Assembly (NCBI GenBank): GCA_022786545.1 | Contig: JALFXV010000036.1 | Span: 1 to 56,126 of the forward strand | From: Selenomonadaceae bacterium | GTDB taxonomy: Bacteria; Bacillota; Negativicutes; Selenomonadales; Selenomonadaceae | DNA: 56,126 nt | Direction: 5' to 3' | Shown: positions 680 to 28,189 of the stretch, piece by piece | Numbering within the stretch: position 1 is the first letter of the stretch | Layout of the letters: every line of letters starts with the position of its first letter | The notes under the pieces: generated by a model | Databases searched by the model: none | Seen by the model: only the letters and a program-made list of their open reading frames with translations | What the model was told of the DNA's origin: nothing | Made by a program: the position numbers and the translations under genes

Positions 680-1306
680 CTATATAAGAGATATGCCATA
701 ACCCAATAAACTATTACTTTGTGGAATATTTCTCGCATTTAACCTGCTTGGTAGAACAACATTTTCAAAATGAATCCCTGCTTCTAACATATCTTCACGA
801 TTGATAAAATCAATAACAATCTCAGGTATAAATCCGCAAATACCCGCATACCCGATATTTTGATACTCAGTGGGAATATGAAATTTCCTGCCACACAAAT
901 ATATCGCACGATAGCCCATGCCCAAAATTTCTTTTACATCATCATCTGTAAAAGCCACTCGTGCAGCAGAATTTATCCACCATTTACTTGACGTCATTTG
1001 CTTTAGAATAGCTTTCTTTGCATAGGTACGCCTTGTAAATGCAGGATTTTTGATACATATATCCCCATTATACATTATGCCCAAAATATTGCACACCTGT
1101 GACATGGCATCAGGAGCATTTATATCTACAGCTTTGACAGCCTTTGCCATCTCATCATACTCATGTGCTGATAGCCAGCGTTCCAAACGTCCATCTAAAT
1201 AGTATTCTATGAATTTTTCTGGGTCAAAATATTCTCTCAGATAGCTTAGACTGCGTACCTTCACGCCATAAGCCATTGTCAAGCTGAATTTAATTTTCTT
1301 TTGCAT
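680..1306 (-). CDS. Unknown protein with a 'dG.L.rWL' helical N-terminal domain
   Basis: This is the last gene of the 16-gene run, about 208 residues. I do not recognise a catalytic family. Residues about 15-75 carry VRSLSYLREYFDPEKF, DGRLERWL and a spaced acidic helix ending in LGI. This pattern (VRSL.EL...FD...F...dG.L.rWL...) recurs as an accessory domain in proteins of rumen and oral anaerobes, from memory. The C-terminal half has no motif I can name and no membrane segment. I chose the ATG at 1306, with GGGG 8 bases upstream. A GTG at 1312 overlapping the upstream stop as GTGA is the alternative. Either way the start is coupled to the previous gene, which ends at 1309. Confidence 0.6.
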   Translation of the reverse strand: MQKKIKFSLTMAYGVKVRSLSYLREYFDPEKFIEYYLDGRLERWLSAHEYDEMAKAVKAVDINAPDAMSQVCNILGIMYNGDICIKNPAFTRRTYAKKAILKQMTSSKWWINSAARVAFTDDDVKEILGMGYRAIYLCGRKFHIPTEYQNIGYAGICGFIPEIVIDFINREDMLEAGIHFENVVLPSRLNARNIPQSNSLLGYGISLI

Positions 1307-1308
1307 AT

Positions 1309-1953
1309 TCACTGCCCCGCAAAACTTGCTTTTTGTTGACGTATTAGCTCAATATCCTGCAAGGTTAATTCCCCATCGTCTGTAAACGCCAATGCCAGCA
1401 ATAGCCTAATTTCAAATTCAGATAAGCCATACAATTCCTCAGCTAATTTTTTTCTGAAGCCAGGTTCCGGTGAAAAACTTCCCTGCTCAAGACAAAATGC
1501 ACTAATTATGCTTTCAATATGGCATATATCTGGATTATTTAACTGTAAAACAGTTGTAAACGATAATAATTCTTCTGGTATAGTTACAACAGGTGCCAAA
1601 ACAATCACATTAAAATCACTATACCCATTGATACTGCCAGCAATTTTATCCGCCAGTGCTTTCAAAAGCATAACAATCTTCTTGTCTTGCAGCATCGCAT
1701 GGGCATTAATCATTAAAAAAATTTTCCCCTTCACCGCATTTCCGTCTGTCACTAAATTTAGAATACATTGCCACAAAGACTTTTCCATCCCATCATACTC
1801 ATCAGCAGTAGCGGCATCCCAAAGGATAAACTCTTTCTCCTTTAAAATGCCGCGTATAATTTTTTCTGCTTCCACACTTTGCGTAGATTTGACATATATG
1901 ATGGGAAGACCGGCATCAACATAGCGACGTAATGTTTCTTTGAATGTTTTCAA
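1309..1953 (-). CDS. Orphan Ycf46-type N-terminal domain (no AAA+ core)
   Basis: About 214 residues. The layout matches the N-terminal domain of Ycf46-family AAA+ proteins: an opening YVDAGLPIIYVKSTQSVEAE, a degenerate strand with GKIFLMINAHAML where a Walker B would be, then APVVTIPEELLSFTTVLQL, and a final helical part LYGLSEFEIRLLLALAFT running into IRQQKAS. In Ycf46 this is followed by an AAA+ ATPase core; here the protein simply ends. There is no Walker A, so it should not hydrolyse ATP by itself. It may be an adaptor for the tandem AAA+ protein of the same operon, whose N-terminal third has a similar character. There is no good ATG. I use TTG at 1953, with GGAAGG 9 bases upstream; TTG at 1962 is too close to that site. 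Confidence 0.6.
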   Translation of the reverse strand: MKTFKETLRRYVDAGLPIIYVKSTQSVEAEKIIRGILKEKEFILWDAATADEYDGMEKSLWQCILNLVTDGNAVKGKIFLMINAHAMLQDKKIVMLLKALADKIAGSINGYSDFNVIVLAPVVTIPEELLSFTTVLQLNNPDICHIESIISAFCLEQGSFSPEPGFRKKLAEELYGLSEFEIRLLLALAFTDDGELTLQDIELIRQQKASFAGQ

Positions 1954-1994
1954 GCGAACCAACCTTCCAACGCAACTACATAAAAATTTTATGT

Positions 1995-4900
1995 CTATGC
2001 CAATTCTATGTGCACTGCCCCAGGAATATTTTCCAAAGCTAAATGCTCCGCATCATTTGTCACAACATACTCAATGGCATGAGATGACACAGGGCGTACA
2101 TAAACCGTACTATCAGCCTCCGGGTTGTCAACATTGATTGTAATGCGCTTGGCAATTGTAGCGGAAGCTTCGTTAGTAGCAGCAATTGCTTCATCAGTAT
2201 ACAATAAATCAAAGGAAGCTGCACCAGCATCAATAAACTTCTGCCATTGACCAATCCTGCTATTGCGATCAAGAATTACGTTGAACTTGCGCTTTTTGCG
2301 CCTGCCAACATAAAAGCCAAACGGCAATACTTCACCACCATTAGTCATATCAACAACTTTCACATCTGCACCATCACGGCAGCGCAGCAACCCATAGGCC
2401 ACACCGGTTTTTCCCGTAGGCTTCCATACAATATCAGAATTTTCCTGTATGTTCTTTCGTGCCATAACTTCCTGTGCCGCTTCCGTACCCAACGGAGGAT
2501 AAAGCTCAAATTCCAGTCGGGCACAGCTTTTGCTATCCTGCTGGATATTCAAAATCTGCCAGGCCTTGCCGTCTTCCTTTACATATTCATCAAACAAATC
2601 CTTGAGCAAATCTGATTTCGAGGCATTACCTGCCAAAAAGACAGCTATCTTGCTTACCTGATTTAAAGGCACAATGTTATTTTTATCCATCATATCACGC
2701 CTGCTGTTCTTTTCAAATGCCTCGCGCATAGCATTAAAGAAGTTATCTACACCATCTGCTATTCTCTTGCGCAGCAGCTCCCGCAAAGGTATCATATCAA
2801 CAACATTTACCTTTGCAGACTCTGAATCATCACCTTTATTTTCCACTACTGATTCCCTATCTATTAAAACAGCCAATTCTACTTTTGTTAACAAACTACC
2901 ATTTTCTTGGAAAAGATCTACCTGTAAAGAATTGCTCTTGCGCATATTATTAACTATTTCTGACTCAGGCTGTTCTAACACAGGACGCAATTTCTCCATA
3001 AGATTATGCATATTTAACATTGCTTCCTGAGAATTGCGAATAATACTCTCACTGCCCAGGAAGTAAGCATTTTCACTGCCCCAATAAAATGGAATACGAC
3101 TACCTTGGGACTCATTATCCTTACCCGGATGCAGCAGTTTCTCCAAATTTGCCTTGAACACTTCAAAGGCCATCATTCGCAAAAGATTTTCACCACCAAG
3201 GGTTTTATCGCCATGCGCTCCAAAATGTGTAAGTACATAGTCGAAACGATCATCTTCCGATTCTCTAAACACACCATAATCAAAATCAGAAGTGCCTCCG
3301 CCGAAATCAAAGACAGCATAATACATTTCCGTTTCATCGCTGCTGTCACCAAGTATATCATAACCTTCCAAGGCTGAGATAGCATAGGCAGCCGGTTCGG
3401 AACTGCCCTCCAGCACCTTGAACTGCTTCATAGTATTCTCATCTGCTAAAAGTGCTGTTGGCAATGATTTTTTTAATCCAGCCGCAAAACTTTCCAGCAT
3501 TTTTTTGCGTATAGAAAATTCATAAGTAACAGGAAACGACAGAATGTACTTCATAAAAATATGCTTTTCCTGAATCATGTTATTAATATAGCTACCCAGA
3601 TAATAAGCATATATCTCCAACGGATCTACATCATCCTCTGTCAATGACTCAAAGGATTTTAGATTTATTTCCAAACCGTCATTATCATGCAATTTTATAG
3701 CATATCCATTATCACCGCACCACTGTTTTATATTGGTAAAAAAGGTGCCATACCGATTGCTTGTCTCACTCTGCTGTAAATCACTCATAGCCGTATGAGA
3801 TACAACCAAATCATTCCAGCTGGTACGCGGCCTACCCGCTCTAGCCTGATATGCTTCCCTAAAAGAATTTAAATGCAAAAATTCCATAATAGTAGGATTT
3901 TCATAATTATCCTTTTTATAGCCATTAGCATAATTACCGTTACCTACCTGCAGCGGAAGAATATTGCCATATTCGTCTTCGTATGCTACCACAGTACTCC
4001 TGGTGCCAAAATCTATAGCAATAATGCCTGACTGATTAACATCTAAAATCGGATTGCGTGCCACCAAGCCTTCAGACAGTTTTACTTTGGTGGTGTCCTG
4101 CTCACCATTTTTGTTAGCCCAATCCCACAATTCCCAGTGGCCGCGATTTCTGTCCAGGAGCATTTGGGCATCATATTTGTCCAGCATTACACGGTTATAA
4201 TCCCACGCCAGCAGCTCATTCTTGAAATATTCCTCGACAGATGCACTAGCCACAATTTCCTGGCTTGCTTCTCCGGATTTGTTTTTGGTTTCCTGAGGCG
4301 TCTCAGCAGTATCTTTCTTAGCTGGAAGCTCTACTACTGGCAATAACCCTGGAAAGAAATCAAAGCTCTTGCCCTGCTCAACCTCTCTTAATACTTTTTT
4401 TACATCAAGAGAAAATTTATTATTGCCTACTAATAAGTAGCTTTTAAAGTTTTTACAAAAGGTTTCTACTCCCAAGAACCTGCTTGTATCAGAAAGCAAT
4501 GCTGGTTTGAGTCCCAAAGACATCCAATGAAATAGAGCCTTTGCTGGCGTAATAAAACGAGGTTTGTGTCCCAAAAAGGAGGAAACTATATTCACGAAGT
4601 TTTGTTCATCTAAACGATATATTGGAATAAGCCACGCTACAGCGTTACTACTACCCCATGAATAAAAATTAATACCCTTATATAATACCCCATATTCGCT
4701 ACCCTCCCTATATACAACAGCACTTTTAGCAGCACCTCTAACATTAATAAGGCCAGTTTTGTTGACAAAAGGATTCGTATTTTGCCAAAAACATTTTTGC
4801 GCCTCATCCTTAGTTGGCAAATCACCATCAAAACCTGCAAAAGAAAGATTATTACGCAACAATGATTTAATACTGCTTCGGCAGGACACATTGTTGCACA

Positions 4901-5276
4901 CAAAAGTCTTTAAATCTGGTACTAAACATGCAATATCATGCACATAATATACATTTTCCTTATTCGGTGTCTGTAAAAGCAGCCATTCTTTTCTTTGAAA
5001 AATATCATTGTAATAGGAACAAAGTTTCCCTGACTCGCTTTCTATAAATTCATTGGCCTCTTGAATTAGTTTCTGCACATCACTAATATCGCTACCAGTA
5101 TTCACGTTGCTTTTATTAACGGAAATAGTTTTTTTATTTGAAGCAGCAGATTTAGCCGTTCTATTCGCAGCAACATTCTGTCCGCTTTTTTTCGCCCTTT
5201 GGTCAATCTCCTGCTGCCACTTTTGCAATACGTTATTTTCGATTTCTATCTCATTAACCAAACGTGTTGTTTCCAT
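1995..5276 (-). CDS. Hsp70-like ATPase (paralogue 4)
   Basis: About 1093 residues, roughly 1.7 times DnaK. A 400-residue extension precedes the nucleotide-binding domain. It includes a low-complexity stretch at 30-70 and a VPDLKTFVCN...FAGFDGDLP segment shared with the next gene upstream. NRGHWELW leads into the NBD. Phosphate-1 is IIAIDFGTRSTVVAY near residue 425, phosphate-2 is AVFDFGGGTSDFDYG near 670, and the adenosine motif is AVFLAGNASKS. The NBD ends at GKTGVAYGLL and is followed by a 130-residue tail (FYVGRRKKRKF, DLLYTDEAIA, VYVRPVSS) in place of a canonical substrate-binding domain. I chose ATG 5276, which has GGTGGAG upstream, over ATG 5294, which has no ribosome site. It starts about 20 bases after its sister Hsp70 gene, which suggests tandem duplication. 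Confidence 0.9.
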   Translation of the reverse strand: METTRLVNEIEIENNVLQKWQQEIDQRAKKSGQNVAANRTAKSAASNKKTISVNKSNVNTGSDISDVQKLIQEANEFIESESGKLCSYYNDIFQRKEWLLLQTPNKENVYYVHDIACLVPDLKTFVCNNVSCRSSIKSLLRNNLSFAGFDGDLPTKDEAQKCFWQNTNPFVNKTGLINVRGAAKSAVVYREGSEYGVLYKGINFYSWGSSNAVAWLIPIYRLDEQNFVNIVSSFLGHKPRFITPAKALFHWMSLGLKPALLSDTSRFLGVETFCKNFKSYLLVGNNKFSLDVKKVLREVEQGKSFDFFPGLLPVVELPAKKDTAETPQETKNKSGEASQEIVASASVEEYFKNELLAWDYNRVMLDKYDAQMLLDRNRGHWELWDWANKNGEQDTTKVKLSEGLVARNPILDVNQSGIIAIDFGTRSTVVAYEDEYGNILPLQVGNGNYANGYKKDNYENPTIMEFLHLNSFREAYQARAGRPRTSWNDLVVSHTAMSDLQQSETSNRYGTFFTNIKQWCGDNGYAIKLHDNDGLEINLKSFESLTEDDVDPLEIYAYYLGSYINNMIQEKHIFMKYILSFPVTYEFSIRKKMLESFAAGLKKSLPTALLADENTMKQFKVLEGSSEPAAYAISALEGYDILGDSSDETEMYYAVFDFGGGTSDFDYGVFRESEDDRFDYVLTHFGAHGDKTLGGENLLRMMAFEVFKANLEKLLHPGKDNESQGSRIPFYWGSENAYFLGSESIIRNSQEAMLNMHNLMEKLRPVLEQPESEIVNNMRKSNSLQVDLFQENGSLLTKVELAVLIDRESVVENKGDDSESAKVNVVDMIPLRELLRKRIADGVDNFFNAMREAFEKNSRRDMMDKNNIVPLNQVSKIAVFLAGNASKSDLLKDLFDEYVKEDGKAWQILNIQQDSKSCARLEFELYPPLGTEAAQEVMARKNIQENSDIVWKPTGKTGVAYGLLRCRDGADVKVVDMTNGGEVLPFGFYVGRRKKRKFNVILDRNSRIGQWQKFIDAGAASFDLLYTDEAIAATNEASATIAKRITINVDNPEADSTVYVRPVSSHAIEYVVTNDAEHLALENIPGAVHIELA

Positions 5277-5297
5277 ATTTTCTCCACCTTTCATATA

Positions 5298-8200
5298 TTA
5301 CTGCAACACTACGCGTATACCAGAAATACTTCCCCTTGGCTGTTCATAGTTGTCCTTATCAAGCACAGCATATTCAATACAATTATTGCCAGCTGGCCTC
5401 ACATATACAGCAGCCTTTGTATCAGGCGCAGTGATTTGCAAAGAAATTCTTTTTGCCATAGCTGCCTGCATATCATGGGAAGCAGCAATAGCACAATCTG
5501 TATAAAGCAAATCAAAAGTAGCTTCATCAGCATCAATAAAGTGCATCCAGCGGCCTTTATCCATACCTGGTTCTAAGACAGGCACAAACTTGCCTCGTTT
5601 TCTGCGCCCTACATAATATTGGAAGGCTGCTTCTCTTTCAGATACCTGCTTATCCAGCTCTACGATTTTTACATTTCCTCCTGCACGGCATTTTAAAAGG
5701 CCGCAAGCAACGCCAGTCTTAGCTGTAATATGCTGTGATATTTCTGGTGTACTATTTTGCATTTCATTTGCTTCTGATGTGCCCAGCGGCGGATAAAGAA
5801 TAAAATTGCAGGCATTGCCAGCACTTATATCCAGCAGTTCTTCTGCCCTGCCTCCAGGTTCCAGATAGGCCTGAAACAAGCTTTGTACAATCTTCGAACG
5901 TGACGAATTGCCACCTAAAAAAATAGCAAACTCTGTCTCTTTAAGTTTACTTAAAGGAACAATGCCATTTTCAGACGTAATACGTCCATGCCGCTTAAAT
6001 GCTTTATACATGGACATAAAAAAGTTATCAATTCCCTGCTTAATACGATTAGTTAAAAATGCTTGCAAATCAAGGCCATTGCTATTCAGGGACAACTTGA
6101 CATTCTGTATGACACTGCCATCTTCTCCGAACAGGCTCAAAGTCACAGAATTTTTTTCCAGCAGTAACTTTGCATCTGCGGAATCTGGCTGTTCCCATAA
6201 CGGGCGCAAGGCTTCCGCTAAAATAGTCATATTCATAGCCGCTTCTTTGGAATTACGTATAAAGGCTTCACTGCCAACAAAATCAGTTTTCTCATCTGCC
6301 CAGAAAAATGGAATTATGCACTCATTTCCTGCTGAAGAAACATACAGCTTATCTGTGTTGGCTCGAAAAACGTTAAATGCCATCGATGCCAGTAATTTTT
6401 CTCCCCCTAGCATAGCATCTCCTGCAGCACCAAAACTAGTGATTACATAGTCATATCTAGCTCCATCCTTTTCTGTTGCCATACTATATCTGCCAAAATC
6501 AAAATCAGTGGTTCCTCCACCAAAATCAAAAACACCATAATATAGTTCTTCATCAAGCAAAAGGCCATAATTCTCCAGTGCAGAAACAGCATAAGCAGTT
6601 GCTTCCGAACATCCTTCCACCACCTTAAAATCACGCATGGCAGACTCATTTTTTAACAAGGCTGTCGGCAGGGATTTCTTCAATCCTCTAGCAAAACTTT
6701 TACATATCTTTTCTTTTATATCAGCTGCGAAGGTTACTGGAAACGACAAAAGATATTTCAAAAAAATATGTTCAGGCTGCAGCATATTATTAATAAAGCT
6801 GCCCACATAATATGCGTATATTTCCAAGGGATCAAAATCATGATCGGTCAGTTCATCAAAAGGAGCAAGGCTTACTTCCATGCCATCCTGATCACACAAA
6901 AGCAGGCTGGATTTTTCACCACTGCACCATTGCTTTATGCCAGAAAGAAATGCTGATTGCCTCACCTTGCTATTCAGCTTGGACATATCTGTTAAAGCTT
7001 TATGGGATATGCAAACATCCTGCCAGCTTGTATCCGGGCGACCAGCCTTTTCATTATAGGCCTGCCAGAATCGCTCAAAATGAGCAATTTCGATAATAGT
7101 GGGATTTTCATATACATTATAGCTTTTATCAGGACGATAACTGCCATCACCAATTCGCAAAAGTATCGCCTCGCCGTGCTCATTTTCAAAAGCAGCTACC
7201 GTACTTTTTGTGCCAAAATCAATGCCGACAATACCGGCCCTGTTTATATCAATCTCAGGGTTTCTTGCGATCAAAGGGATTGGCAAATCCAAGTTAACAG
7301 CATCATTGTTTTTTTCCTGGCTATGCCATAAATCCCAATGCCCCCTATTGGCATCCGTTAACATCTTTTTATCATATTTGGTCAGGCCAATTCGCCGTTG
7401 GTCGCAGGCAGCCAGCTGTTCCTGCAGAGCTTCCATATCATCAGCAGACAAGGAAACTGCCGTAACAGCCTCATTATCATCAGCAGCTTCAACAAAGGAA
7501 ACGTTCCTTCCTGACTTCATCACCTTTTCCAATTTCTCCCTGTTTATTTTTAAACAATCTTGCTCTTTTATTATGTAGGGATACATTTCCTGCCAGATAT
7601 TAGCAATTGTTTCAAATGTTGACTGCATATCAGGCTGGGAAGCATAAACAGACTGAGCAGGTTTAAGTCCATTACCTAACCAGATTATAAGCGCGTCTGC
7701 TGCTGATAAACGCAATTCTTTATCTTGTATATCGAAAGTATACACTGGCAAAAGAGCTGTATCCCATGAGGAAAAACCACCCATATTGGAAATATCGTAC
7801 CTATTATTGGTCATGTAATATGCAGCATATTTTCCAGTGGAGTATCTGACTGCCACCGCATCAAATTTTTCTTTACCAACACAAAGCCTGAAATTTTTCT
7901 TATCCCTAAAGTATGGTGTTTCTGCATTAAAGCATTCTTGCGCCTCAAGGAGAGAAGGAAGACAGCCTTTAAACCCAGCAAAATCATAGTTCAAAGACTT
8001 TAATTCATTAGACATCTGATAACATGAATTATGGACTTTGCATTTATATGTATCTAAATCGGGCACTACGCCCTTAATAGCAGGAACATAATATACACTA
8101 ATATTCTGATTATCATAGCGTGTCATGGGAATCCACTGCTGCTCTGCCAATGGTATTTTAAAATAATCGCATAATTTTTGCAGTTTTGCTTCCCAGTCAG

Positions 8201-8300
8201 CAATACTAGTTTCATGCCTTGAGACAACTGAAACATGCTGCAACAAATCCAGTTGAGATATTGGCATAGATAATGTAGTTATCTTTTTTGTATACTTCAT
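5298..8300 (-). CDS. Hsp70-like ATPase (paralogue 3)
   Basis: 1000 residues, the same architecture as its neighbour downstream. N-terminal extension to about residue 350 with VVPDLDTYKC and FAGFKGCLP, then NRGHWDLW at about 319-326. Phosphate-1 is GIDFGTKSTVAAF near 359, phosphate-2 is GVFDFGGGTTDFDFG near 589, and the adenosine motif is FAIFLGGNSSRSK near 790. The end of the NBD is KTGVACGLL, followed by the shared tail (YYVGRRKRGKF, DLLYTDCAIA, VYVRPAG). All ATP-contacting motifs are intact, so it should bind and hydrolyse ATP. A clear AGGAG lies 9 bases before the ATG. It directly follows a GrpE-like gene (68-base gap), consistent with a chaperone/exchange-factor pair. Confidence 0.9.
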   Translation of the reverse strand: MKYTKKITTLSMPISQLDLLQHVSVVSRHETSIADWEAKLQKLCDYFKIPLAEQQWIPMTRYDNQNISVYYVPAIKGVVPDLDTYKCKVHNSCYQMSNELKSLNYDFAGFKGCLPSLLEAQECFNAETPYFRDKKNFRLCVGKEKFDAVAVRYSTGKYAAYYMTNNRYDISNMGGFSSWDTALLPVYTFDIQDKELRLSAADALIIWLGNGLKPAQSVYASQPDMQSTFETIANIWQEMYPYIIKEQDCLKINREKLEKVMKSGRNVSFVEAADDNEAVTAVSLSADDMEALQEQLAACDQRRIGLTKYDKKMLTDANRGHWDLWHSQEKNNDAVNLDLPIPLIARNPEIDINRAGIVGIDFGTKSTVAAFENEHGEAILLRIGDGSYRPDKSYNVYENPTIIEIAHFERFWQAYNEKAGRPDTSWQDVCISHKALTDMSKLNSKVRQSAFLSGIKQWCSGEKSSLLLCDQDGMEVSLAPFDELTDHDFDPLEIYAYYVGSFINNMLQPEHIFLKYLLSFPVTFAADIKEKICKSFARGLKKSLPTALLKNESAMRDFKVVEGCSEATAYAVSALENYGLLLDEELYYGVFDFGGGTTDFDFGRYSMATEKDGARYDYVITSFGAAGDAMLGGEKLLASMAFNVFRANTDKLYVSSAGNECIIPFFWADEKTDFVGSEAFIRNSKEAAMNMTILAEALRPLWEQPDSADAKLLLEKNSVTLSLFGEDGSVIQNVKLSLNSNGLDLQAFLTNRIKQGIDNFFMSMYKAFKRHGRITSENGIVPLSKLKETEFAIFLGGNSSRSKIVQSLFQAYLEPGGRAEELLDISAGNACNFILYPPLGTSEANEMQNSTPEISQHITAKTGVACGLLKCRAGGNVKIVELDKQVSEREAAFQYYVGRRKRGKFVPVLEPGMDKGRWMHFIDADEATFDLLYTDCAIAASHDMQAAMAKRISLQITAPDTKAAVYVRPAGNNCIEYAVLDKDNYEQPRGSISGIRVVLQ

Positions 8301-8368: not shown

Positions 8369-9160
8369 TTACGTTAATTGTACCAAACTACGTTTGATTA
8401 CATTACCGTTTAGCCTATGCTTATAACCAGCCAGGAAAATATTCTCAACATAGCCTATTTTAGCTCCTGAAAGACATGGCAGCATCAAATCTTCATCATA
8501 ATTACTGCCAGGTAAAATTTCCAAACGCAGATAGGCAGGCTCCCTGCCACCTTGGTTAAATAGGTCAAAGCACAAATCAAAAAGTTTTCGTAAAGCATCA
8601 ATCTGCTTGCCATTGAAACGGTCATTATTAATTGCCCTGCATATATACTCCCAAAAATCATGCAGATGATCTTCCTGCAAAGCACCACTCAAAAGCCCCA
8701 GTCTGTCCTGCCCGTTGCCCAGAATACCGCACAAAGACTCATGTACTTCTGCCCCCAAACTGCTATACACTCTGAATGCTTCTTCCAGAATACCGTAATT
8801 ATCAGTGTATTTCTGCAACGCTGCTGATTGCTTAGCGAACTCCGCAGATAATTTTTGCCGTTTTTGATCTGTTTTTTCAGCTTGCTCCTGACACTGTTTT
8901 AGGTCGTTTTCTAACTTTAGAATTGTTTCCTGATACTTATCCAGCAATTTTTGTTGTTCTGCAAGCTTCATCTTCTTGCTTTTTATATCAGCTCTAAGGG
9001 TTGCAAGTTCCTCTTCAAAAGAAGATGAACGCTGCATGTTTTGGGTGATATATTGACCGAGATACTCCAAGAGACAGTCCTTCACTTTGGCTTTTAATAA
9101 ATCAGTATTATTTTCCAAGCCTTTCCTAAAAATAATATTGACAAGTTCGTTATCATCCAT
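8369..9160 (-). CDS. GrpE-like coiled-coil protein 2
   Basis: 263 residues. A long heptad-rich coiled coil spans about 45-125, then a helical region shared with the first GrpE-like protein of the operon, then a C-terminal block with YDEDLMLPCLSGAK and GYKHRLNGNVIKRSLVQL. That last block matches the end of the GrpE beta domain (FDP...D.....G.V..V...GY...R.IR.A.V.V) in spacing and character. GrpE is the nucleotide-exchange factor of DnaK, with a coiled-coil stalk and a beta wing that touches the NBD. I infer that this protein serves the Hsp70-like ATPases encoded immediately downstream. It overlaps the upstream GTPase gene by 8 bases, so the two are translationally linked. It is unlikely to be the housekeeping GrpE, since its stalk and middle region differ. 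Confidence 0.7.
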   Translation of the reverse strand: MDDNELVNIIFRKGLENNTDLLKAKVKDCLLEYLGQYITQNMQRSSSFEEELATLRADIKSKKMKLAEQQKLLDKYQETILKLENDLKQCQEQAEKTDQKRQKLSAEFAKQSAALQKYTDNYGILEEAFRVYSSLGAEVHESLCGILGNGQDRLGLLSGALQEDHLHDFWEYICRAINNDRFNGKQIDALRKLFDLCFDLFNQGGREPAYLRLEILPGSNYDEDLMLPCLSGAKIGYVENIFLAGYKHRLNGNVIKRSLVQLT

Positions 9161-17077: not shown

Positions 17078-17114
17078 TTTATCCACCTCTATTAATTAGG
17101 TAATTATCGCCGCA

Positions 17115-18593: not shown

Positions 18594-18627
18594 AAAAATT
18601 CTCCTCTGCATAGACATACAAAATAGA

Positions 18628-20355: not shown

Positions 20356-23127
20356 TTACTCTTGAAAGCAGATAATCATGCTCTCGTTTACTTCCTCATC
20401 ATCAGCAGGAGCAGCAGCCTGGCTTCCCAGCCTGTATTCTACCCGTCGCTCATCTACTACTCTCAGATAAACAGTATACTTTCCAGCCTCAACCTGACAT
20501 CTGACGGCCTGTTCCATAGGTTTCAACATGCCTTCATCATTACTTTGGGAGGTTGTGTACCGCAAATTCAAAATAGGATTTTCTTTCTTTACCCGATTTG
20601 CTTTCAGCCAGCTGGTACGATTTTCATTTTTATTAATGACCGTGATAAATTCCCCATTGCTGATATAACCAATATTGAATAAAAATGCCGGATTAGCATT
20701 CTTCGTACTTGGAGATATAACAGCAGCTTGTGCCCCCAGCAGCCTCAGCTGCCCAACAGCTACAGCAGTTTTGCTATTTACAGCATATGCATCACTGTGA
20801 TTTTTATTATTTTGCCCTTCCCCTATAATATGAATATTTTCTCTTGGAAAGATCTCTTCCATCATCTCCCTGACGTAGTGCTGCTTGGAAGCATTCCCCC
20901 CCAGGAAGATATTCACATCATCAAACGCAAAATTTTCCACACCATACGCCAGCAAGACATCTTTATTACTATTAAAAGTTACTGTCATCGAGTGTTTAAA
21001 TGCCTCAATAGTTTTCTTTATTTTTTCAGCTAGGAAATCTTCTAATCCATCAAAATTTAATTCCACCTTAACTGGCTCATCGTGAATATTGCGTAACTGA
21101 ACCATATAGGAATTTGTATCATCACCTTGTTCAATCTCATTCAAATTCACTAATATTTCATCCAAATGGCCATCAAAATTGTATTCACCAGAATATTGAA
21201 ACAGCGGTCTTGCAAAATACTCCTCTATAATGTATAAATTACTATCAGCAATAGAATCCCCCATGCCATTAACCAGCAATCCGGAAAAACCATTTGGCTC
21301 TTTTTCGTCCTGAGGTTTCACAAACTTGATCTGTTTTGCCTGAACTTCCTTTTGACTGTTAATATAAATTTTATACGCCATCTGGTGAATAAGCTTTTCG
21401 CCGCCCACTTTTTCATCACCATCAATGCCGAGAAAATGTAATACATCCTCTGCTTCTTCCTGTTCCTCGCCTACAGCCTTCCGCAAAAGTCCAAAGGCAA
21501 AGTCCATCGTACCGCCTCCCAGGTCATAAACCCCAAACAGCTTCGTTTTACCTTCCTCTGCCTTGATTTGCTTGCCGTATACTGCTCCCATGCAGGCTTC
21601 AGGCTCTGAATACCGCATCTCAACTCGCACTAAAGGATTATTATTAAAATCTTTTCCTTCACGGATAGAACGAGGCAAAGAACGCTTGATACCATATTCT
21701 AGGGAATGTTTTATCCTTGTGCGTATTTCTTCGTTAAATTTTGCTGGATACGTAATGTAGTAATTTCTGTACAGGTTGCCGCCTTCCGGCTTGCTAGCTG
21801 GCTTATTAATCGCTCTTCCCAGTAAATAGCCATAAAAGGCAATTGGATCGAAATGATATTCATCTTCCTTGTCAGGCGAGTCAACTATCGTGATGGAATG
21901 TCCTTTGGCATCATTATAAGGCGTAAAGCGAACCTCTTTTCCTTCAGCTAAGTAATATGGAAGCATCTTTAACTGGCTGACAATAGAACGCAATCTTCTC
22001 CTGCCGCCTTCTTCATTCACAGTCTTAAATTCATCTGCTACCGTATATCCTGAATCATAATCAGCCTGCTGAATCGGTACATCTTCGCTTCTTGTAACCA
22101 GCATCGGCGGATTGACATTATCTGACTGCCACTGCCGCAATACTTCATCCCAATTGCAAATCATCAGATTGGTTGGATTCTCATATACATTATCCAATGT
22201 ATCAATGCATTTTTTTATACCTGAAAGGGTAAGCAGCTGCTCCTTGGCGCCAGTAGTATTAATGGCAGCACAGGTGCCTGAGGTACCAAAGTCGATGGAA
22301 ACATTTCCTTCCTTCAGATAACGGTTGCTATTATTTTCATCCAGCCTGGTATCGCGTACACATATCTCCACAGGAAAACTGTACACATACCTTTCATAGC
22401 CAGGGTACTCAATATGGTAGTCAAATCTTCCCTTAAATTTTGGATAAAAAGATTCAGAACCACATTTCTCAATAATATCTTCTAGCTGATTGGTATCAAC
22501 ATAAGCGTAAAGCTCCTGACTCCCATCCTGTTCAGCATGATCCTTAATCCAAATCTTTTCTTCCTGCACATCAATATCCTGATTGTCAATTTTTTCCCAA
22601 TGCAAGCAACATCTCACCTTATATCTATCATTGTTGCGATGCGGCATATTTTTTAAATGGATGGCCCATTTTCTGGCACCACTGCCGCTCCAGATACCAT
22701 ATCCTTCTGTAAGCATTTCACCAGGCAATATGGCTTCATCCCCGAAAAAATCCTGCTCCGTAATATCCTCATATTCCATGATAGGGAAATCGTAACAAAC
22801 TTTACCAGTAACGGATGCAAAAGATTTGTTTGCAGCATTGGCCAATCCCTCCAGTACCGACCTGCCCTTCAGCTCCTTGATATACTCTCCGCCATTCTTG
22901 AGTATGCGAACACAAAGCTTCCAGTCATCCAAGGTATCTTCTCCTTGATCTGATACAATTCGCATACAAAAGTACTCAGGGTTTTCCCGTTCTGGATTTA
23001 CCGGAATAATAACATCACTCAGAGATTCTGTATCATCCAAGACAGATTGCTCATACTTCCTGATATTACCAGTTTCGTTATCCATAAATTCAACATAAAT
23101 TTTTTTGAATTGAATTTCTCTACCCAT
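20356..23127 (-). CDS. Divergent Hsp70-like ATPase (paralogue 2)
   Basis: 923 residues. It has a different N-terminal extension of about 270 residues from the other three Hsp70s (no GHWDLW motif). Phosphate-1 is VSIDFGTSGTCAA near 276-288, with Ser-Gly in place of Lys-Ser. Phosphate-2 is FGVYDLGGGTMDFAFG near 531-546. The adenosine motif is NIFLGGNASKQH, and the NBD closes with KTAVAVGQLRLLG. A beta-rich tail (NENRTSWLKANR, YTVYLRVVDERRVEYRL) replaces the substrate-binding domain. The NRGHWDLW-type Hsp70s also have a shared tail, so this is a separate branch with a parallel build. Ribosome site AGGAG; it overlaps the TerB-like gene by 8 bases. It probably pairs with the GrpE-like gene that follows. 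Confidence 0.9.
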   Translation of the reverse strand: MGREIQFKKIYVEFMDNETGNIRKYEQSVLDDTESLSDVIIPVNPERENPEYFCMRIVSDQGEDTLDDWKLCVRILKNGGEYIKELKGRSVLEGLANAANKSFASVTGKVCYDFPIMEYEDITEQDFFGDEAILPGEMLTEGYGIWSGSGARKWAIHLKNMPHRNNDRYKVRCCLHWEKIDNQDIDVQEEKIWIKDHAEQDGSQELYAYVDTNQLEDIIEKCGSESFYPKFKGRFDYHIEYPGYERYVYSFPVEICVRDTRLDENNSNRYLKEGNVSIDFGTSGTCAAINTTGAKEQLLTLSGIKKCIDTLDNVYENPTNLMICNWDEVLRQWQSDNVNPPMLVTRSEDVPIQQADYDSGYTVADEFKTVNEEGGRRRLRSIVSQLKMLPYYLAEGKEVRFTPYNDAKGHSITIVDSPDKEDEYHFDPIAFYGYLLGRAINKPASKPEGGNLYRNYYITYPAKFNEEIRTRIKHSLEYGIKRSLPRSIREGKDFNNNPLVRVEMRYSEPEACMGAVYGKQIKAEEGKTKLFGVYDLGGGTMDFAFGLLRKAVGEEQEEAEDVLHFLGIDGDEKVGGEKLIHQMAYKIYINSQKEVQAKQIKFVKPQDEKEPNGFSGLLVNGMGDSIADSNLYIIEEYFARPLFQYSGEYNFDGHLDEILVNLNEIEQGDDTNSYMVQLRNIHDEPVKVELNFDGLEDFLAEKIKKTIEAFKHSMTVTFNSNKDVLLAYGVENFAFDDVNIFLGGNASKQHYVREMMEEIFPRENIHIIGEGQNNKNHSDAYAVNSKTAVAVGQLRLLGAQAAVISPSTKNANPAFLFNIGYISNGEFITVINKNENRTSWLKANRVKKENPILNLRYTTSQSNDEGMLKPMEQAVRCQVEAGKYTVYLRVVDERRVEYRLGSQAAAPADDEEVNESMIICFQE

Positions 23128-24289
23128 TCGACTTCACTCCTATTTCCAAATTACGGCAAACCAGCTCATGCAAATAATCATACCATTTATATGCTATTTC
23201 CATATCAGCCTGCTGCTTGTCCATATAAACAAATGCCCTTAGTAGTGCTTTATGCGCTTCCTGCTGTGCCAGCAGATAATCACAATACGCACTAACAAAT
23301 TCACTGCCTGCAAATGTATCTTTTTTCAATTCCTTGAGCAGCAGGGACTTGCTCATCTCTCCATCCTGCTCTACCGTCAAATACAAAATATCCTGATACA
23401 GTATCCAATGCAATGCCTGCTCCAGCAGATTTTTCTGTAAAACAGCAAATGTCTTTCGCATAACATTATCCTTGCCGTCACTTTTATCTGCCTTTTTTAG
23501 GCTATTAATGAGTGCGCTGTCGTTAAGGTGCATGGTGCGTGCCATATTTTCCAGATATATCAGCTTTTCTGCTGTCAGCCTGCCATCTCCGGCTGCCACA
23601 CTGGTCGTAAAATCAAGATACATCATTCTATGTTCCACAGAAAGCCTGGCCACTGGATGCTGCAACAATGCATCATGCAGCTTTGTGCAGCGCAGCAAGA
23701 TAAATTCTCCGACAAAATCCAGCAATACACCGGGCAAAGGCACTTGCAGCAAGTATGTCCTAACTTTGTTTTTCTCCACCCCTGGCAGTATACCAACACC
23801 ATCTTCTGAAAAAAATATCTTGCTATAGGCATAACTGCTCACAGGCTGATTGGCTGGCTTAAAATAAAATCTCTCCTTAGTAAAAACCCAAAATTCCTGC
23901 TTGCCGTCTTCAAAATCATATACCTGGGGCACATAAATGCCAATAATAGATTTCAAGACTATCTTTTCCTTGGTCAGCCTTGCCCTAATTTTCTGAAAAT
24001 ATACATCATCCTGATTTTTCAGAGCTTGCTTGCAGTTGCTGCTGCCGAGCAAGATATGTTCATCATCCTCCTCAAGTTCAAGATAATTCTGATATGTCAT
24101 TCCATATTTTCTGGCTATGCAGTCGATAACTATATCATCAAATCTATAATCAAGGAAAAAATAATTTGCTTCCTGTATGCTGCGGGGCAATATTCCTGCA
24201 TTTGCCAGAACAGCTTCCTGCAGGTTTGAACCATCTTTTATGCGGGGATAAATAATCCCACTATCTGCATCCACTAAAAGCGTTTTCAT
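23120..24289 (-). CDS. TerB-like domain protein
   Basis: 389 residues. Residues about 225-260 read VAAGDGRLTAEKLIYLENMA, the acidic AxxDGxxxxxE pattern of TerB-fold proteins (metal-binding helical bundles found in tellurite-resistance and conflict systems). A weaker echo, YLTVEQDGEMSKSLLLKEL, lies near 303-321. The N-terminal 200 residues are not recognised; they include an FWVFTKERFYFKP segment and a PLPGVLLDFVGEF segment. There is no signal peptide. The gene sits between two Hsp70 genes, 13 bases after one and overlapping the next, so it is probably part of the same complex. The TerB call rests on a short motif only. Confidence 0.55.
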   Translation of the reverse strand: MKTLLVDADSGIIYPRIKDGSNLQEAVLANAGILPRSIQEANYFFLDYRFDDIVIDCIARKYGMTYQNYLELEEDDEHILLGSSNCKQALKNQDDVYFQKIRARLTKEKIVLKSIIGIYVPQVYDFEDGKQEFWVFTKERFYFKPANQPVSSYAYSKIFFSEDGVGILPGVEKNKVRTYLLQVPLPGVLLDFVGEFILLRCTKLHDALLQHPVARLSVEHRMMYLDFTTSVAAGDGRLTAEKLIYLENMARTMHLNDSALINSLKKADKSDGKDNVMRKTFAVLQKNLLEQALHWILYQDILYLTVEQDGEMSKSLLLKELKKDTFAGSEFVSAYCDYLLAQQEAHKALLRAFVYMDKQQADMEIAYKWYDYLHELVCRNLEIGVKSNG

Positions 24290-24302: not shown

Positions 24303-27300
24303 TTATTCAAAATCAATGCGGACTAACTCACCCTCATCCTTTATATTTGCACACTCATCCATGCTCTTTGCTATAGTGTATACAATAGCCGTTGATGACA
24401 CAGGCCTGATAAATACCCTGCCGTCAGGCACTTTTTTCTCCAACACTATATGCTTGCGCTTAGCGATATTAAGCGAAGCGTTATTATTCGCTGCCGCAGG
24501 TTGTGTAGTATACAAAATATCAAAATCATCACTGGCATCCATAAAATCAACCCACTGATTGTAGCTAGCCCCATGCCCCAATACCGTATAGAATTTCTTT
24601 TTCCTGCTTCTGCCTATATAGTACTGGAAGGCAACCTCCTTATCACAGTTATTGGTTATATTAACAACTTTGATTGAACCTCCTGCACAGGTTTCTAAAA
24701 GGCCATAAGCCACACCTGTCTTGCCCGTAGGGCGCAACAAATTCTCATCATTACGCTCCTGGGCATTTTCGGCAGCCTGCTTGGAAGAATCAGCTCCAGG
24801 TTTGTCCTGCATTGTAGCTGCATCCTCATCGGACTTTTGCACATTATCCACTTGTTCATCAGATGCCACATTCTCTGTTATTATATTTAGTGAGCGCTTG
24901 ATGATTTTATCTGCTTCTGCTGTGCCCAATGGCGGAAGCAGCATAAACTTCGGCATCTTGCCACCCTGCAATACACCCAGTAATGTCTGTGCCTTTGGTT
25001 TGCTGCCATCAGTATATTCAGCAAAAATCTCTTTGACCAGGGCAGATTTTGAAGCATTACCTGCCATGAAAATATAAAATGTATCAATTTGCGATAAAGG
25101 CTTAACAATATCTGGCGAAAGTCTAAATGCTTCATTAAGGGAAACAAAGAAATTATTTATACCTTTATCTATCCTCTTGCGAATGATAGCTGGCAAGTCA
25201 AGGTCTTTTAATTCCAGTAAAAAGTTTGGCTTCTGCTCACCCTTGTCTGTAAAAAGATTTACTTCAATTTGTCTTTTTTCAAAAATATCTTTGGTATATT
25301 CTGCTGTAGGATTTTCCCATACCGGACGCAGCTTTTCCATCAAATTATGCATATTTTGTTTGGCTTCCCTAGACTCGCGAATAATAGCTTCGCTTCCCAC
25401 AAATGAAGTGCTGTCAGGAGCTTTACAAAAAGGAATTTTGCTTCCCTGATCATCAACTTTCAGCAAGGACTCATAGTTTGCCGCAAAAACTTCAAAGGCC
25501 AGCAGCTTGAGAATATTCTCACCACCCAAAGTACGATCGCCATTTTCGCCAAAATGTGTCAGTTTATAATCATATCTGCCATCATCCAATTCTTCCAGCC
25601 AGCCAAAGTCAAAATCCGTAGTTCCACCGCCAAAATCAAATACGCCATAATAATTCTGCTCCTCATCTACTGGACTAAAGCCAAATTCCATCAGGGCAGT
25701 GCAGGCATAGGCAGCAGGTTCTGTAGCACCCTCCACCACCTTGAACCGCTTCATGGCCTCATCATTGCTCAAAAGAGCCGTTGGCAGTGACTTCTTCAAG
25801 CCCTTGGCAAAAGAGCGCAGTAGCTTTTCCCGGATATTGCGCTCATAGTTTACCGGGAAGGACATGATATAGTGCATGAAGATATGCTTCTCCTGCAGCA
25901 TATTGTTAATGTACAGCCCCAGGTAATAAGCATATATCTCTATCGGGTCAATATCCGTGTCCAGCAAATCCAGATACGCTGGCAAGTCATAGGTATTTCC
26001 CTGCTTGTCTTCAATTTTCACCTTTTCCTTGCTGCCGCCACACCACTGTTTCAGTTCATCAAAGAAGGAATAATATTCCGTGCTGCTGCTGACATCCAAA
26101 TTCTGTTTGGCATTACTGGAAACAGTAATATCCTCATAGCTGGTATCAGGCCTGCCTGCTTTTGCATTATATGCTTTCATAAAGGAATTTATATCAAGGA
26201 ATTGAACTATAGTAGGATTTTCATAATTTTCCTTCTTGATGCCGCCTGCATAATTACCACTGCCCACCTGCAACGGCAAAATCTCACTGTTTTCATTCTT
26301 ATAAACAACAACAGTGCTTTTAGTACCGAAATCAATAGCAACAATACCGCTATTGATGTCAGCCACAGGATTTCTAGCTACCCATGGTTTAGGAAGCTTG
26401 ACTATACCGCCATCATCAGCGCTATTATCATCCATATCCCACAAATCCCAATGACCGCGGTTTGGATCAATAAGCAGATTGTTATCATAAGGATCAAGGC
26501 AAGCCCTGTTGTAATCGCAATTCAAGAGATTATCGACCAAATCCTTTAATTGAACCTCATCAGCTGTCGCAGTTCCATTAATAATAGCCTTATAGTCAGC
26601 TTCATTCATAAAGAATGGCTTCTTACCATTAAGTGCTTCTCTGTATAAAAGGTCTATATCCAAGCCAAGCTTATCGCCATCTGCTGTAATGCCTGGTAAC
26701 TTCCAACTTTCCAGCAGGTTTGTAAATATTTCATATTGAGTTTTATTTGCAAAGGCAGTTTCAGAGACCGGCAAATCGTGCATCAATAAATCAAGCACTA
26801 CCTGATTGGCAGTAATATTTGCATCTATACCATGAAAATGGTGAACAGGAAATAATAAAAAACTACAATCGTAATAACCACCAGTCTCTCCCATAGTATA
26901 GCTACAAAAGGTATAATGTGCCGTATCAAACCTTTTTAGTTTCGCCCTATCCCTAAATATTACTCCAGCATAATCCTTACCACAATAACGTACCCAATAA
27001 GTAGACCCGCTTGTTCTAATAAAATATCTTAATTCCTTCAAACTTGGCAATTCGCCTAAAAAACCGACCAAATCTGGCACTTTTACCTTATAAGGCAATG
27101 TATCCCCTCGATATGAGCCATACTCCGTTTTATCCCAATTACCTGTCAATCCTCCTAATCTGCAATCATAAGTCACATCTTTACTTTCTATATAGTAGTG
27201 TGCCTTTCCATTAGATATTGCCCGTTGAAAATACTCCACCAAAAATGAAAATTTCTTATTATACTCATCCAGAGCCTTTTTGCCAGCAGACTCAACTGCC

Positions 27301-27374
27301 TGCTTTAAGACTATTTTCTTAACGGCTTCATACTTTTTCTTTGATAATTTTATCGCATCTATATTCTTAGTCAT
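24303..27374 (-). CDS. Hsp70-like ATPase (paralogue 1)
   Basis: 1023 residues. N-terminal extension to about 340 with VPDLVGFLGELPSLKELRYF, then NRGHWDLW at 305-312. Phosphate-1 is GIVAIDFGTKSTVVVY near 343-358, phosphate-2 is GVFDFGGGTTDFDFG near 577-591 and the adenosine motif is FYIFMAGNASKSALV near 766-780. A low-complexity acidic insert at 835-880 interrupts the NBD before RPTGKTGVAYGLLE. The tail is FQYYIGRSRKKKF, DFDILYTTQPAA and VFIRPVSSTAIVY. Motifs are intact, so ATPase activity is expected. It follows the first GrpE-like gene by 17 bases, with GAGGTGA as ribosome site. It is clearly paralogous to the two Hsp70 genes at the far end of the operon. Confidence 0.9.
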   Translation of the reverse strand: MTKNIDAIKLSKKKYEAVKKIVLKQAVESAGKKALDEYNKKFSFLVEYFQRAISNGKAHYYIESKDVTYDCRLGGLTGNWDKTEYGSYRGDTLPYKVKVPDLVGFLGELPSLKELRYFIRTSGSTYWVRYCGKDYAGVIFRDRAKLKRFDTAHYTFCSYTMGETGGYYDCSFLLFPVHHFHGIDANITANQVVLDLLMHDLPVSETAFANKTQYEIFTNLLESWKLPGITADGDKLGLDIDLLYREALNGKKPFFMNEADYKAIINGTATADEVQLKDLVDNLLNCDYNRACLDPYDNNLLIDPNRGHWDLWDMDDNSADDGGIVKLPKPWVARNPVADINSGIVAIDFGTKSTVVVYKNENSEILPLQVGSGNYAGGIKKENYENPTIVQFLDINSFMKAYNAKAGRPDTSYEDITVSSNAKQNLDVSSSTEYYSFFDELKQWCGGSKEKVKIEDKQGNTYDLPAYLDLLDTDIDPIEIYAYYLGLYINNMLQEKHIFMHYIMSFPVNYERNIREKLLRSFAKGLKKSLPTALLSNDEAMKRFKVVEGATEPAAYACTALMEFGFSPVDEEQNYYGVFDFGGGTTDFDFGWLEELDDGRYDYKLTHFGENGDRTLGGENILKLLAFEVFAANYESLLKVDDQGSKIPFCKAPDSTSFVGSEAIIRESREAKQNMHNLMEKLRPVWENPTAEYTKDIFEKRQIEVNLFTDKGEQKPNFLLELKDLDLPAIIRKRIDKGINNFFVSLNEAFRLSPDIVKPLSQIDTFYIFMAGNASKSALVKEIFAEYTDGSKPKAQTLLGVLQGGKMPKFMLLPPLGTAEADKIIKRSLNIITENVASDEQVDNVQKSDEDAATMQDKPGADSSKQAAENAQERNDENLLRPTGKTGVAYGLLETCAGGSIKVVNITNNCDKEVAFQYYIGRSRKKKFYTVLGHGASYNQWVDFMDASDDFDILYTTQPAAANNNASLNIAKRKHIVLEKKVPDGRVFIRPVSSTAIVYTIAKSMDECANIKDEGELVRIDFE

Positions 27375-27391
27375 TTTGTCACCTCAAAACT

Positions 27392-28189
27392 TCATGATTT
27401 TCTCAGTAAAACCAGTGCCGGATGTACCACTTTGCCACTGCCCACATATCTATACCCCGGTAGCAGCATTTCCTGCACCTTTCCCAGCTGACTGCTGTCC
27501 TTGGCACGTCCCATACACCCTGCATCAAAGCCCTGCCCCGGCTCTGCCATGATGATTTCATAGGCAGCAACCTTGTCCACACCGGCAACGGCGTGAATGG
27601 CAAAGGTCATAACCTCCTTGAATATCTCCCTGTCCTGTGCGGAAGCCAGACCTTCATTGATAGCATTGCTCATATACAGCCAGGCACTATCAAGATGCTT
27701 TTCCTGTGCAATACCTAATAACAGCTTCAGGCCATCATCGTCAGTATGACAGCCAAATGCCGCCATTACCCCTGCCAACATCCTTTCACTTAGCTTGTGA
27801 ATTAATTTCGTAATCCTTTCTGCTTCATGATACCGCTCATCATAATAATCATTAAGCTGTTCTGCTTTATCTTTTGCAGCCTGAACATCACTCAGTTCGT
27901 TTTGCAAATTCAGACATTTTTGCTGCTCTGCTTCTAGCTTTTGCTCCAATTCATAGCGAAAGCTAGATAGCTTATCATTATAGCTACTCGTCAGCTGTTC
28001 AATTTCATCCTTATGCCGTGTCTGCAGCAAATTAAGAGCGTTCTCATGTTTATCGTGCATGAACGCAATAACCTCATCATGTTCCTTTTGTAACCTATCC
28101 ACTTCTTCCTGATGCCTGCGCTCCATCTCGGCAAAGCCAGCTTTCAGCTGTGCTACAACATCTTCCAACAACATCTCATACTCTTGCAC
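27392..28189 (-). CDS. GrpE-like coiled-coil protein 1 (first gene of operon)
   Basis: 265 residues. Coiled coil at about 10-125, helical middle at 125-215, then GFDAGCMGRAKDSSQLGKVQ at about 220-239 and GYRYVGSGKVVHPALVLL at about 245-262. The C-terminal part matches the GrpE beta wing closely (FD...H.A....D...G.V..V...GY...R.IRPA.V.V). This is the clearest of the three GrpE-like proteins and supports the reading of the other two. Start codon is GTG at 28189 with GGAGTGGG 6-7 bases upstream. The promoter and inverted repeat about 90-120 bases upstream belong to this gene, so it opens the operon and is followed directly by an Hsp70-like gene. Confidence 0.75.
   Translation of the reverse strand: MQEYEMLLEDVVAQLKAGFAEMERRHQEEVDRLQKEHDEVIAFMHDKHENALNLLQTRHKDEIEQLTSSYNDKLSSFRYELEQKLEAEQQKCLNLQNELSDVQAAKDKAEQLNDYYDERYHEAERITKLIHKLSERMLAGVMAAFGCHTDDDGLKLLLGIAQEKHLDSAWLYMSNAINEGLASAQDREIFKEVMTFAIHAVAGVDKVAAYEIIMAEPGQGFDAGCMGRAKDSSQLGKVQEMLLPGYRYVGSGKVVHPALVLLRKS

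Follow-up and report, generated by a model that had tools for sequence, protein, structure and literature searches.

The window analyzed here, a 56,126-nucleotide contig of a Selenomonadaceae bacterium, carries on the minus strand, at positions 680–28189, a dense run of genes for four Hsp70-like ATPases, GrpE-type proteins, a tandem AAA+ ATPase, a radical S-adenosylmethionine (SAM) enzyme and two dynamin-like GTPases. This run is an accessory island. Since a six-gene core kept its order in seven of seven loci and the composite of core and additions recurred in another family, yet relatives of the Hsp70 and LeoA proteins are also found apart, the run is not one fixed 16-gene unit but a core with modular additions. 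Checked against the condition named for its refutation, that homologues are scattered and share no conserved neighbourhood, the original prediction gave a mixed outcome. We filed it with the nucleoside triphosphate (NTP)-dependent conflict systems, in the style outlined in the available part of Kaur et al. (2020; PMC7159879), as a representative carrying the LeoA-LeoBC dynamin pair. With a probability of roughly 45%, we regard it as an anti-phage system whose chaperones and AAA+ protein would keep the dynamins switched off until an infection is perceived and then set them free on the membrane.

A six-gene core with a variable downstream slot

The genes were numbered g01 to g16 by position, so that g16 is the first gene of the minus-strand run. 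The core comprises the genes for an Hsp70-like protein (g13, Hsp70b, 923 amino acids [aa], 20356–23127), a coiled-coil protein with a C-terminal domain (g12, 362 aa, 19251–20339), a radical SAM enzyme (g11, 210 aa, 18628–19260), the marker protein g10 (500 aa, 17115–18617), the coiled-coil protein g09 (254 aa, 16322–17086) and, as last gene, the tandem AAA+ ATPase (g08, 863 aa, 13718–16309). The order Hsp70b-g12-radical SAM-g10-g09-AAA+, on which the assignment of g09 and g12 to the core is based, was found in six Negativicutes genomes (the window, G097, G281, G150, G183 and G214) and on a Sulfurovum contig (L065), that is, in Bacillota and Campylobacterota. In G214 and G097 the core extends across more than one contig, with inferred joins. 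Before the core, g14 (389 aa, 23120–24289) was present in five of the six loci with a visible upstream side.

The tandem AAA+ and radical SAM assignments of the original prediction, which had been made from the sequence alone, were confirmed. The PF00004 model matched g08 in two stretches (4.9e-57) and PF13353 matched g11 (3.7e-31), an enzyme of NrdG/activase type with a CxxxCxxC motif; the three cysteines were invariant in the six of seven g11 proteins that were aligned. With 104.4 versus 126.1 bits, g11 stayed under the cut-off of the NrdG model. The g08 protein also matched many phage records, as any AAA+ protein would, and the PADLOC model IetA (5.8e-46), which is expected of such AAA+ domains.

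A structural model of g10 (mean predicted local distance difference test [pLDDT] score 86.3, predicted template modelling [pTM] score 0.56) showed a long helical rod followed by a small alpha/beta C-terminal domain, in which C416, H442, E444, G448 and C450 are invariant in the alignment. A fold search with this model gave no confident match (best E 0.22), which is not proof of a new fold. Including the window's own genome, g10 was present in 6 of the 380 class genomes searched; in a search of the phylum, the only convincing match among 299 genomes was that of the window itself. Weak matches in G426, G645 and G668 (E 1e-4 to 9e-4) were disregarded as probable background caused by coiled coils.

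The genes behind the AAA+ gene vary. They encode LeoBC and LeoA in the window and in G097, a 907-aa dynamin in G281 (Dynamin_N, 1.5e-13) and a NERD-UvrD helicase in G150 (PF08378; PADLOC RTasNERD-Hel, 7.6e-59). In G183 and G214 nothing of comparable size follows on that strand, and the Sulfurovum contig ends there. Because a different dynamin or a NERD nuclease-helicase occupies the same slot, the core would act as a switch that can be combined with various effectors.

The LeoBC-LeoA dynamin pair

The two GTPases were correctly recognized as dynamin-like in the original prediction, which missed that they are identifiable as the named pair LeoBC (g07, 937 aa, 10853–13666; PADLOC LeoBC, 5.6e-78) and LeoA (g06, 559 aa, 9153–10832; PADLOC LeoA, 1.4e-92). 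LeoA exceeded the cut-off of PF18709, and its sole match in the PDB at 0.001 was the LeoA crystal structure 4aur (E 2e-10); it remained below the curated NCBIfam cut-off for LeoA/HP0731 (NF041922, 89.6 versus 325 bits). Both proteins contain P-loops. On the minus strand LeoBC lies 5′ of LeoA with a gap of 20 bases, and LeoA overlaps the following GrpE-type gene g05 by 8 bases. We take the pair to represent the Dynamins/Eleos type of defence, whose name and origin are said to go back to Millman et al. in 2022. In the part of a further source that is available, Dynamins and Eleos are treated as one defence type and LeoA is not named (PMC11811056).

LeoBC of the window carries C-terminal Sel1 repeats (PF08238, 4.4e-42) and, at residues 469–487, a strongly hydrophobic stretch. 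Besides the window's protein, 19 LeoBC open reading frames (ORFs) were scored for this Sel1 arm. It was present in that of G097 and in none of the 18 others, which include one fragment and two near-identical sequences. In a tree of 17 rows (the window's protein and 16 of the 19 scored; one near-duplicate and two short sequences were excluded), the LeoBC proteins of the window and of G097 were sisters (100/100). A separate Sel1 ORF was seen near LeoBC in one other locus (L193).

LeoA was found in 31 of the 380 class genomes at 1e-20, including the window's own, and its neighbourhood was read in G097 and in 18 of the other 29 genomes. In these 18 Negativicutes neighbourhoods the order was always LeoBC followed by LeoA, and none contained a match to Hsp70, GrpE-type, g10 or radical SAM proteins. 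In four of them (L183, L184, L195 and L197) an AAA+-type ORF was located nearby (307–337 bits), which we took as a generic AAA+ protein.

Recurrence of the composite in Phascolarctobacterium

The combination of core, LeoBC-LeoA and Hsp70/GrpE-type genes recurred in G097, a Phascolarctobacterium genome and thus a member of another family, where it is distributed over three contigs with inferred joins. One contig carries the C-terminal half of the AAA+ protein, LeoBC and the start of LeoA, and the next one the end of LeoA, an Hsp70, a GrpE-type gene and a cut Hsp70; about 65 LeoA residues between the two are unseen. The order behind LeoA is therefore Hsp70, GrpE-type, Hsp70 in G097 versus GrpE-type, Hsp70, Hsp70 in the window. 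Two families share an accessory unit in which a radical SAM enzyme and an AAA+ ring go together with Hsp70s of two branches and a pair of large GTPases.

Hsp70-like and GrpE-type proteins

Besides Hsp70b, the run encodes Hsp70a (g15, 1023 aa, 24303–27374), Hsp70c (g03, 1099 aa, 1995–5294) and Hsp70d (g04, 1000 aa, 5298–8300). The claim of four Hsp70-like ATPases held, based on motifs, profile comparisons with shuffled controls and catalytic columns, and for g15 alone also on the predicted fold. Three of the proteins were included in one alignment (A1) and g13 in another (A5). Compared with DnaK by hhalign, A1 reached 5.1e-6 and A5 3.1e-7 (each a single pair), whereas ten shuffled controls gave 0.044 or worse for A1 and 0.22 at best for A5. 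All five catalytic columns checked were invariant in 22 of 22 rows of A1 and 7 of 7 rows of A5. The Pfam HSP70 model did not match any of the four proteins up to E = 1, and the matches listed in a search of the bacterium's own genome with PF00012 include none from the window.

The model of g15 (mean pLDDT 79.8) comprises an N-terminal extension, an Hsp70 ATPase domain and a domain resembling the beta part of the substrate-binding domain (SBD). It matched DnaK and BiP at 3.2–4 Å over the ATPase domain and at 6.5–8.7 Å as a whole, the match reaching the beta part of the substrate domain, after which the chain ends; the lid is absent from the model. In a tree of 33 chosen Hsp70 rows, which gave long-branch warnings, g03 and g04 were sisters (98/82). 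Tandem Hsp70s were likewise mutual closest relatives in L052, L053 and L082 and not in L039 and L043; from the sisterhood within pairs at four loci, including the window, the doubling of Hsp70 seems to have arisen several times.

GrpE-like proteins had also been predicted. This assignment was supported for the family of g16 (265 aa, 27392–28189) and g05 (263 aa, 8369–9160), both of which consist of a coiled coil and a GrpE-type C-terminal domain, and not for g12. The family profile (A6) matched 17 canonical GrpE proteins with an hhalign E of 9.8e-6 (single pair, probability 82.5), the best of ten shuffled controls being 0.15. PDB sequence searches with the whole profile returned coiled coils and with its C-terminal part weak unrelated matches, GrpE not being among them. 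The reading of g12 as a third GrpE was unsupported (E 0.14 and 0.32 against GrpE); its match to A6 (0.038, with ten shuffles at 0.097 or worse) is a weak hint of a relationship.

Extent and expression of the run

The genome comprises 2.6 Mb on 117 contigs, of which C81 is the window. The best match bearing a name was a partial Anaerovibrio protein with 81% identity. According to the ORF list, positions 680–28189 are tiled by 16 ORFs on the minus strand, and the 15 junctions from g01/g02 to g15/g16 measure -4, 32, 3, 68, -8, 20, 51, 12, 28, 10, -10, 16, -8, 13 and 17 bases. Strand, ORFs and spacing of the predicted 16-gene, 27.5-kb operon were thus exact, with gaps of 3–68 bases and four overlaps where at least four had been counted. 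Its extent was not, as the run continues beyond position 680. On the same strand, 85 bases downstream of the end of g01, an ORF at 1–594 (198 aa) is open at the contig end and encodes the 5′ part of a DUF6734 protein (PF20508, E 7.1e-8 for this part). The last 141 bases of contig C9 of the same genome are 100% identical to window positions 1–141, and the DUF6734 gene ends on C9 after about 98 further residues, which on their own matched no Pfam family. The run therefore comprises 17 genes and about 28.5 kb.

The spacing of the genes suggests that they are transcribed together. A promoter-like site with an extended -10 region (10 of 12 consensus positions) lies at 28313–28284 on the minus strand, 95 bases before g16. 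This candidate is a consensus match, and sites of this kind often arise by chance (40 were found versus 30.7 expected in the same scan).

The run is an accessory island at a variable site

Both edges of the island are visible. The right edge was placed at 28344–28352 by comparing the junction letters with those of G007, a genome of the same genus in which positions 17187–19993 of L139 correspond to window positions 28344–31160 with 94.8% identity. The DNA left of the insertion, located on C9, is 76–85% identical to G007, where the operon is absent between these flanks. In two further genomes of the genus (G001 and G012), the dehydrogenase gene directly adjoins the hydrolase gene and the site is unbroken. 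G007 contains a short, different insert at this position, consisting of an ORF that we take to be Fic-like from its motif and of a UvrD_C_2 remnant; C9 has a UvrD_C_2 remnant as well. The Fic-like ORF matched PADLOC PDC-S23 models. Both lie at 16260–17269 of L139, and the remnant shares 53–54% identity with the C-terminal end of the NERD helicase that follows the core in G150. The site seems to be a hotspot for the turnover of defence genes.

Searches for Hsp70a, g10 and LeoA were negative in each of the 15 other genomes of the genus, several of which are only 81–88% complete. The insertion site itself was read in three of the 15 (G001, G007 and G012). In G005 the contig ends there, and in the other 11 the site was not read, as no copy of the flanking dehydrogenase exceeded 41% identity. 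A 400-aa protein with a C-terminal winged helix is encoded at 29271–30473 and is present at the site in G007 and not in the stretch of G001; it might be a regulator acquired together with the island.

Relatives of the Hsp70 proteins and their neighbours

Hsp70 matches above 300 bits defined at least 56 loci, of which 24 have a GrpE-type ORF within 400 bases and four more have g12. A dynamin-like ORF was located within 6 kb in seven of these loci, two being short pieces (L056 and L082), one broken (L043) and one on the other strand (L067). Around the set on an Acinetobacter plasmid are WYL, HEPN and integrase genes and a gene for a 196-aa dynamin-family protein. Ten neighbour proteins of relatives were chosen for a PADLOC scan and six matched; among these are, in Pseudomonas saxonica, a subunit of a type I restriction system (2.3e-172) and, in Ignatzschineria, a PD-T4-6-like protein. 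Hsp70a had no match in 50,697 phage records, two short matches in viral contigs and matches in 2 of 72,556 plasmid records; g10 was found in none of the plasmid records.

Genes for a HerA-like ATPase (F02) and F03, joined by F06 in gammaproteobacterial loci, adjoin GrpE-type and often tandem Hsp70 genes in L052, L053, L054, L058, L063 and L082, and also in L039, L043 and L046; they form a second recurrent Hsp70 system. In six loci (L021, L022, L033, L035, L059 and that of G022, L014/L015), GrpE-type/Hsp70a pairs are followed by the families F07-F08-F09-F10-F11. One member of this set is a VgrG-like spike protein (PF04717 in L022, where it was tested), and the whole resembles a cassette for toxin delivery or a spike, equipped with an Hsp70 of its own.

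A model for the function of the island and its alternatives

The original prediction of an NTP-dependent conflict system gained indirect support from the match of LeoA and LeoBC to a defence library, from the accessory nature of the island and from the location of some relatives near nuclease, HEPN, WYL and restriction genes. Hsp70 proteins bind and release their clients in cycles, in which GrpE serves as exchange factor. NrdG-like radical SAM enzymes act by modifying a partner protein, double AAA+ rings disassemble complexes and dynamins reshape membranes. From these activities, a chain of events can be proposed. The Hsp70/GrpE-type pairs would bind clients in ATP-driven on/off cycles, and as no J-domain protein was seen in the run, clients would be brought by the N-terminal extensions or by coiled-coil partners. 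The client may be LeoBC, held via its Sel1 repeats, or a coiled-coil scaffold of g10 and g09. The complex would be armed when the radical SAM enzyme modifies one of the core proteins, for which the invariant Cys/His patch of g10 is the most likely target. Upon infection, the chaperones would become occupied by phage proteins, or else the complex would be pulled apart by the tandem AAA+ ring. Freed LeoBC and LeoA could then assemble with GTP on the inner membrane, and the infection would be stopped by membrane remodelling or closing off. The presence of the Sel1 arm only on core-linked LeoBC, among the ORFs scored, and the variation of the partner that follows the AAA+ gene suggest such a chaperone-held effector freed on infection. 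If this holds true, Hsp70 chaperoning would be tied directly to a defence-library dynamin pair, offering a way to ask how bacterial dynamins stay off until infection. We also considered that the six-gene core might be a new class of immune switch, in which chaperone occupancy is the signal, the radical SAM enzyme arms the g10 rod and the AAA+ ring fires it, with killers plugged in behind (LeoBC-LeoA, the 907-aa dynamin or the NERD nuclease-helicase); this more far-reaching proposal is doubtful. The g10 marker and the variable effector slot make further systems findable.

Several observations weigh against an anti-phage function of the assembled run. The run's proteins gave no match to a nuclease or an obvious killing domain, and the role given to g10 is a guess because no known fold matched. 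Four of the ten chosen neighbours of relatives, including the HEPN protein, matched no PADLOC model at 1e-5. In at least 14 genomes of the genus g9 (G145–G157 and G023) a single Hsp70a-type gene with an open frame of 885–913 aa was present, and in G023, which was read in context, it stands alone; it looks like a gene with a housekeeping role there and may be a domesticated member. The occurrence of Hsp70a in trans in four of five core genomes was dropped as evidence, being confounded by genus: Hsp70a-type genes are widespread in the genera in question (72 of the 380 class genomes at 1e-60, own included). Moreover, the core lacks LeoA and LeoBC in four of the six loci with a visible downstream side, and the Hsp70 behind LeoA in G097 falls into a branch, long and of unsure placement, other than that of g03 and g04. 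Because of these differing branches, the tail part may not be inherited as one block.

The latter two points, the 18 LeoBC-LeoA pairs free of chaperone and core genes and the many other partners of GrpE-type/Hsp70a pairs would all be explained if an Eleos-type LeoBC-LeoA pair, the Hsp70b-AAA+ core and the GrpE-type/Hsp70 pairs were separate systems stacked in a defence island and sharing a promoter by chance. We consider this unlikely, since core, LeoBC, LeoA and GrpE-type/Hsp70 genes are together again in another family, the LeoBC proteins of both composites share the Sel1 arm, a second kind of dynamin occupies the same slot in G281 and LeoA overlaps g05 by several bases. The run might also be an export or vesicle machine, in which the chaperones keep cargo unfolded and LeoA/LeoBC shed or fuse membrane. 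LeoABC was first described as aiding vesicle-linked secretion in E. coli and not defence, according to the available part of PMC4159319. The hydrophobic stretch of LeoBC agrees with this idea, and the Hsp70a relatives alongside VgrG-like genes suit toxin delivery as well: in the Selenomonadaceae locus L022 a weak, sub-cut-off AHH-nuclease match lies beside the VgrG-like protein and the GrpE-type/Hsp70 genes, and the same families occur in all six loci of that set. Nevertheless, a NERD nuclease-helicase in the slot of G150 is unsuited to export and no Pfam toxin or secretion family was among the matches of the run's proteins, signal peptides not having been examined, which makes an export function quite improbable. 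Finally, Hsp70, GrpE-type and AAA+ proteins are parts of disaggregases and the catalytic residues are intact, so that a specialized stress operon acting against heat or oxidative damage, with dynamins repairing the membrane, may be envisaged. It appears very unlikely, as the distribution is sporadic (g10 being found in few genomes of the class and in no other of the genus), a separate DnaK and GrpE are encoded on contig C113 of the genome and no J-domain family was among the Pfam matches listed for the run.

Comparison with known systems

The complete gene set was not found described in the literature searched, which is not proof of its being unpublished. The earlier statement that no named system has this set thus holds for that literature, although its LeoA/LeoBC part is named. 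Like other such pairs, the one in the window matches both PADLOC models, with LeoBC directly 5′ of LeoA; it differs in being part of a 17-gene run behind a chaperone-AAA+ core and in the Sel1 arm of its LeoBC.

The available part of Kaur et al. (2020; PMC7159879) describes GTPase-centred NTP-dependent conflict systems with HSP70 and a GrpE exchange factor (the GAP1-N2 theme), occurring in Firmicutes among others and built of a core and variable effectors. The window resembles these in the joint encoding of GTPases with HSP70/GrpE and in its core with variable effectors. In contrast, its GTPases are the dynamins LeoA and LeoBC, and it adds the tandem AAA+ protein, the radical SAM enzyme and g10. 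Neither "dynamin" nor "TerB" occurs in the main text of that paper. No Pfam name of a GAP1-N type domain was among the matches listed, the presence of such a model in the library not having been checked; likewise, no FNIII or DnaJ domain (as in FNIII-DnaJ/TPR fusions) was among them, TPR-like Sel1 repeats being present on LeoBC instead. The same part of the paper describes FtsH ternary systems with a stand-alone radical SAM enzyme, thought to modify the effector, near chaperone-type ATPases. A stand-alone radical SAM enzyme adjoins chaperone-type ATPases in the window too, but it is NrdG-like, and no vWA or MoxR-type partner exceeded the cut-offs; a vWA domain, as in MoxR-vWA ternary systems, was not among the matches listed for the 16 proteins.

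CoCoNuT type III systems, as described in the available part of PMC11090510, contain Hsp70-like units of nucleotide-binding domain and SBD in coiled-coil-rich defence operons, and the ATP motifs of CnuD are degenerate. The window shares Hsp70-like units amid coiled coils, but its five catalytic columns are intact and it lacks a match to McrC, HEPN or cold-shock domains (no McrC/DUF2357 among the matches listed). IetS, the subtilisin-like partner in IetAS, was not among the matches listed either, the scan having covered the 16 genes and not the 17th. Compared with DnaK-DnaJ-GrpE, the window shares the Hsp70 ATPase fold of g15 and the GrpE-type C-terminal domain of g16 and g05, and it differs in the N-terminal extension and missing lid of the g15 model, in escaping the Pfam HSP70 model and in having no visible J-domain protein. 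Phage sensing by bNACHT25 involves DnaJ together with DnaK, according to the available part of PMC12169576.

Remaining genes of the window

For g10, g09, g14, g02 and g01, no family of known function was matched. The TerB-like label originally given to g14 was not supported, as no Pfam family matched up to E = 1. The two last complete genes of the run are g02 (217 aa, 1309–1962), which showed no significant Pfam match and only matched phrog_8638 (E 5e-5), and g01 (210 aa, 680–1312). The latter is related to a 406-aa protein adjoining GrpE-type/Hsp70 genes in G029 and weakly to the family F21 (371–453 aa), located near such genes elsewhere (hhalign E 6.6e-5, single pair, uncorrected). That g01 and g02 are shrunken versions of the HerA-like F02/F03 found with tandem Hsp70s elsewhere was unsupported. 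Far from the island, at 48425–49618, the window carries an ORF for an AAA_21/AbiEii-type ATPase amid housekeeping genes.

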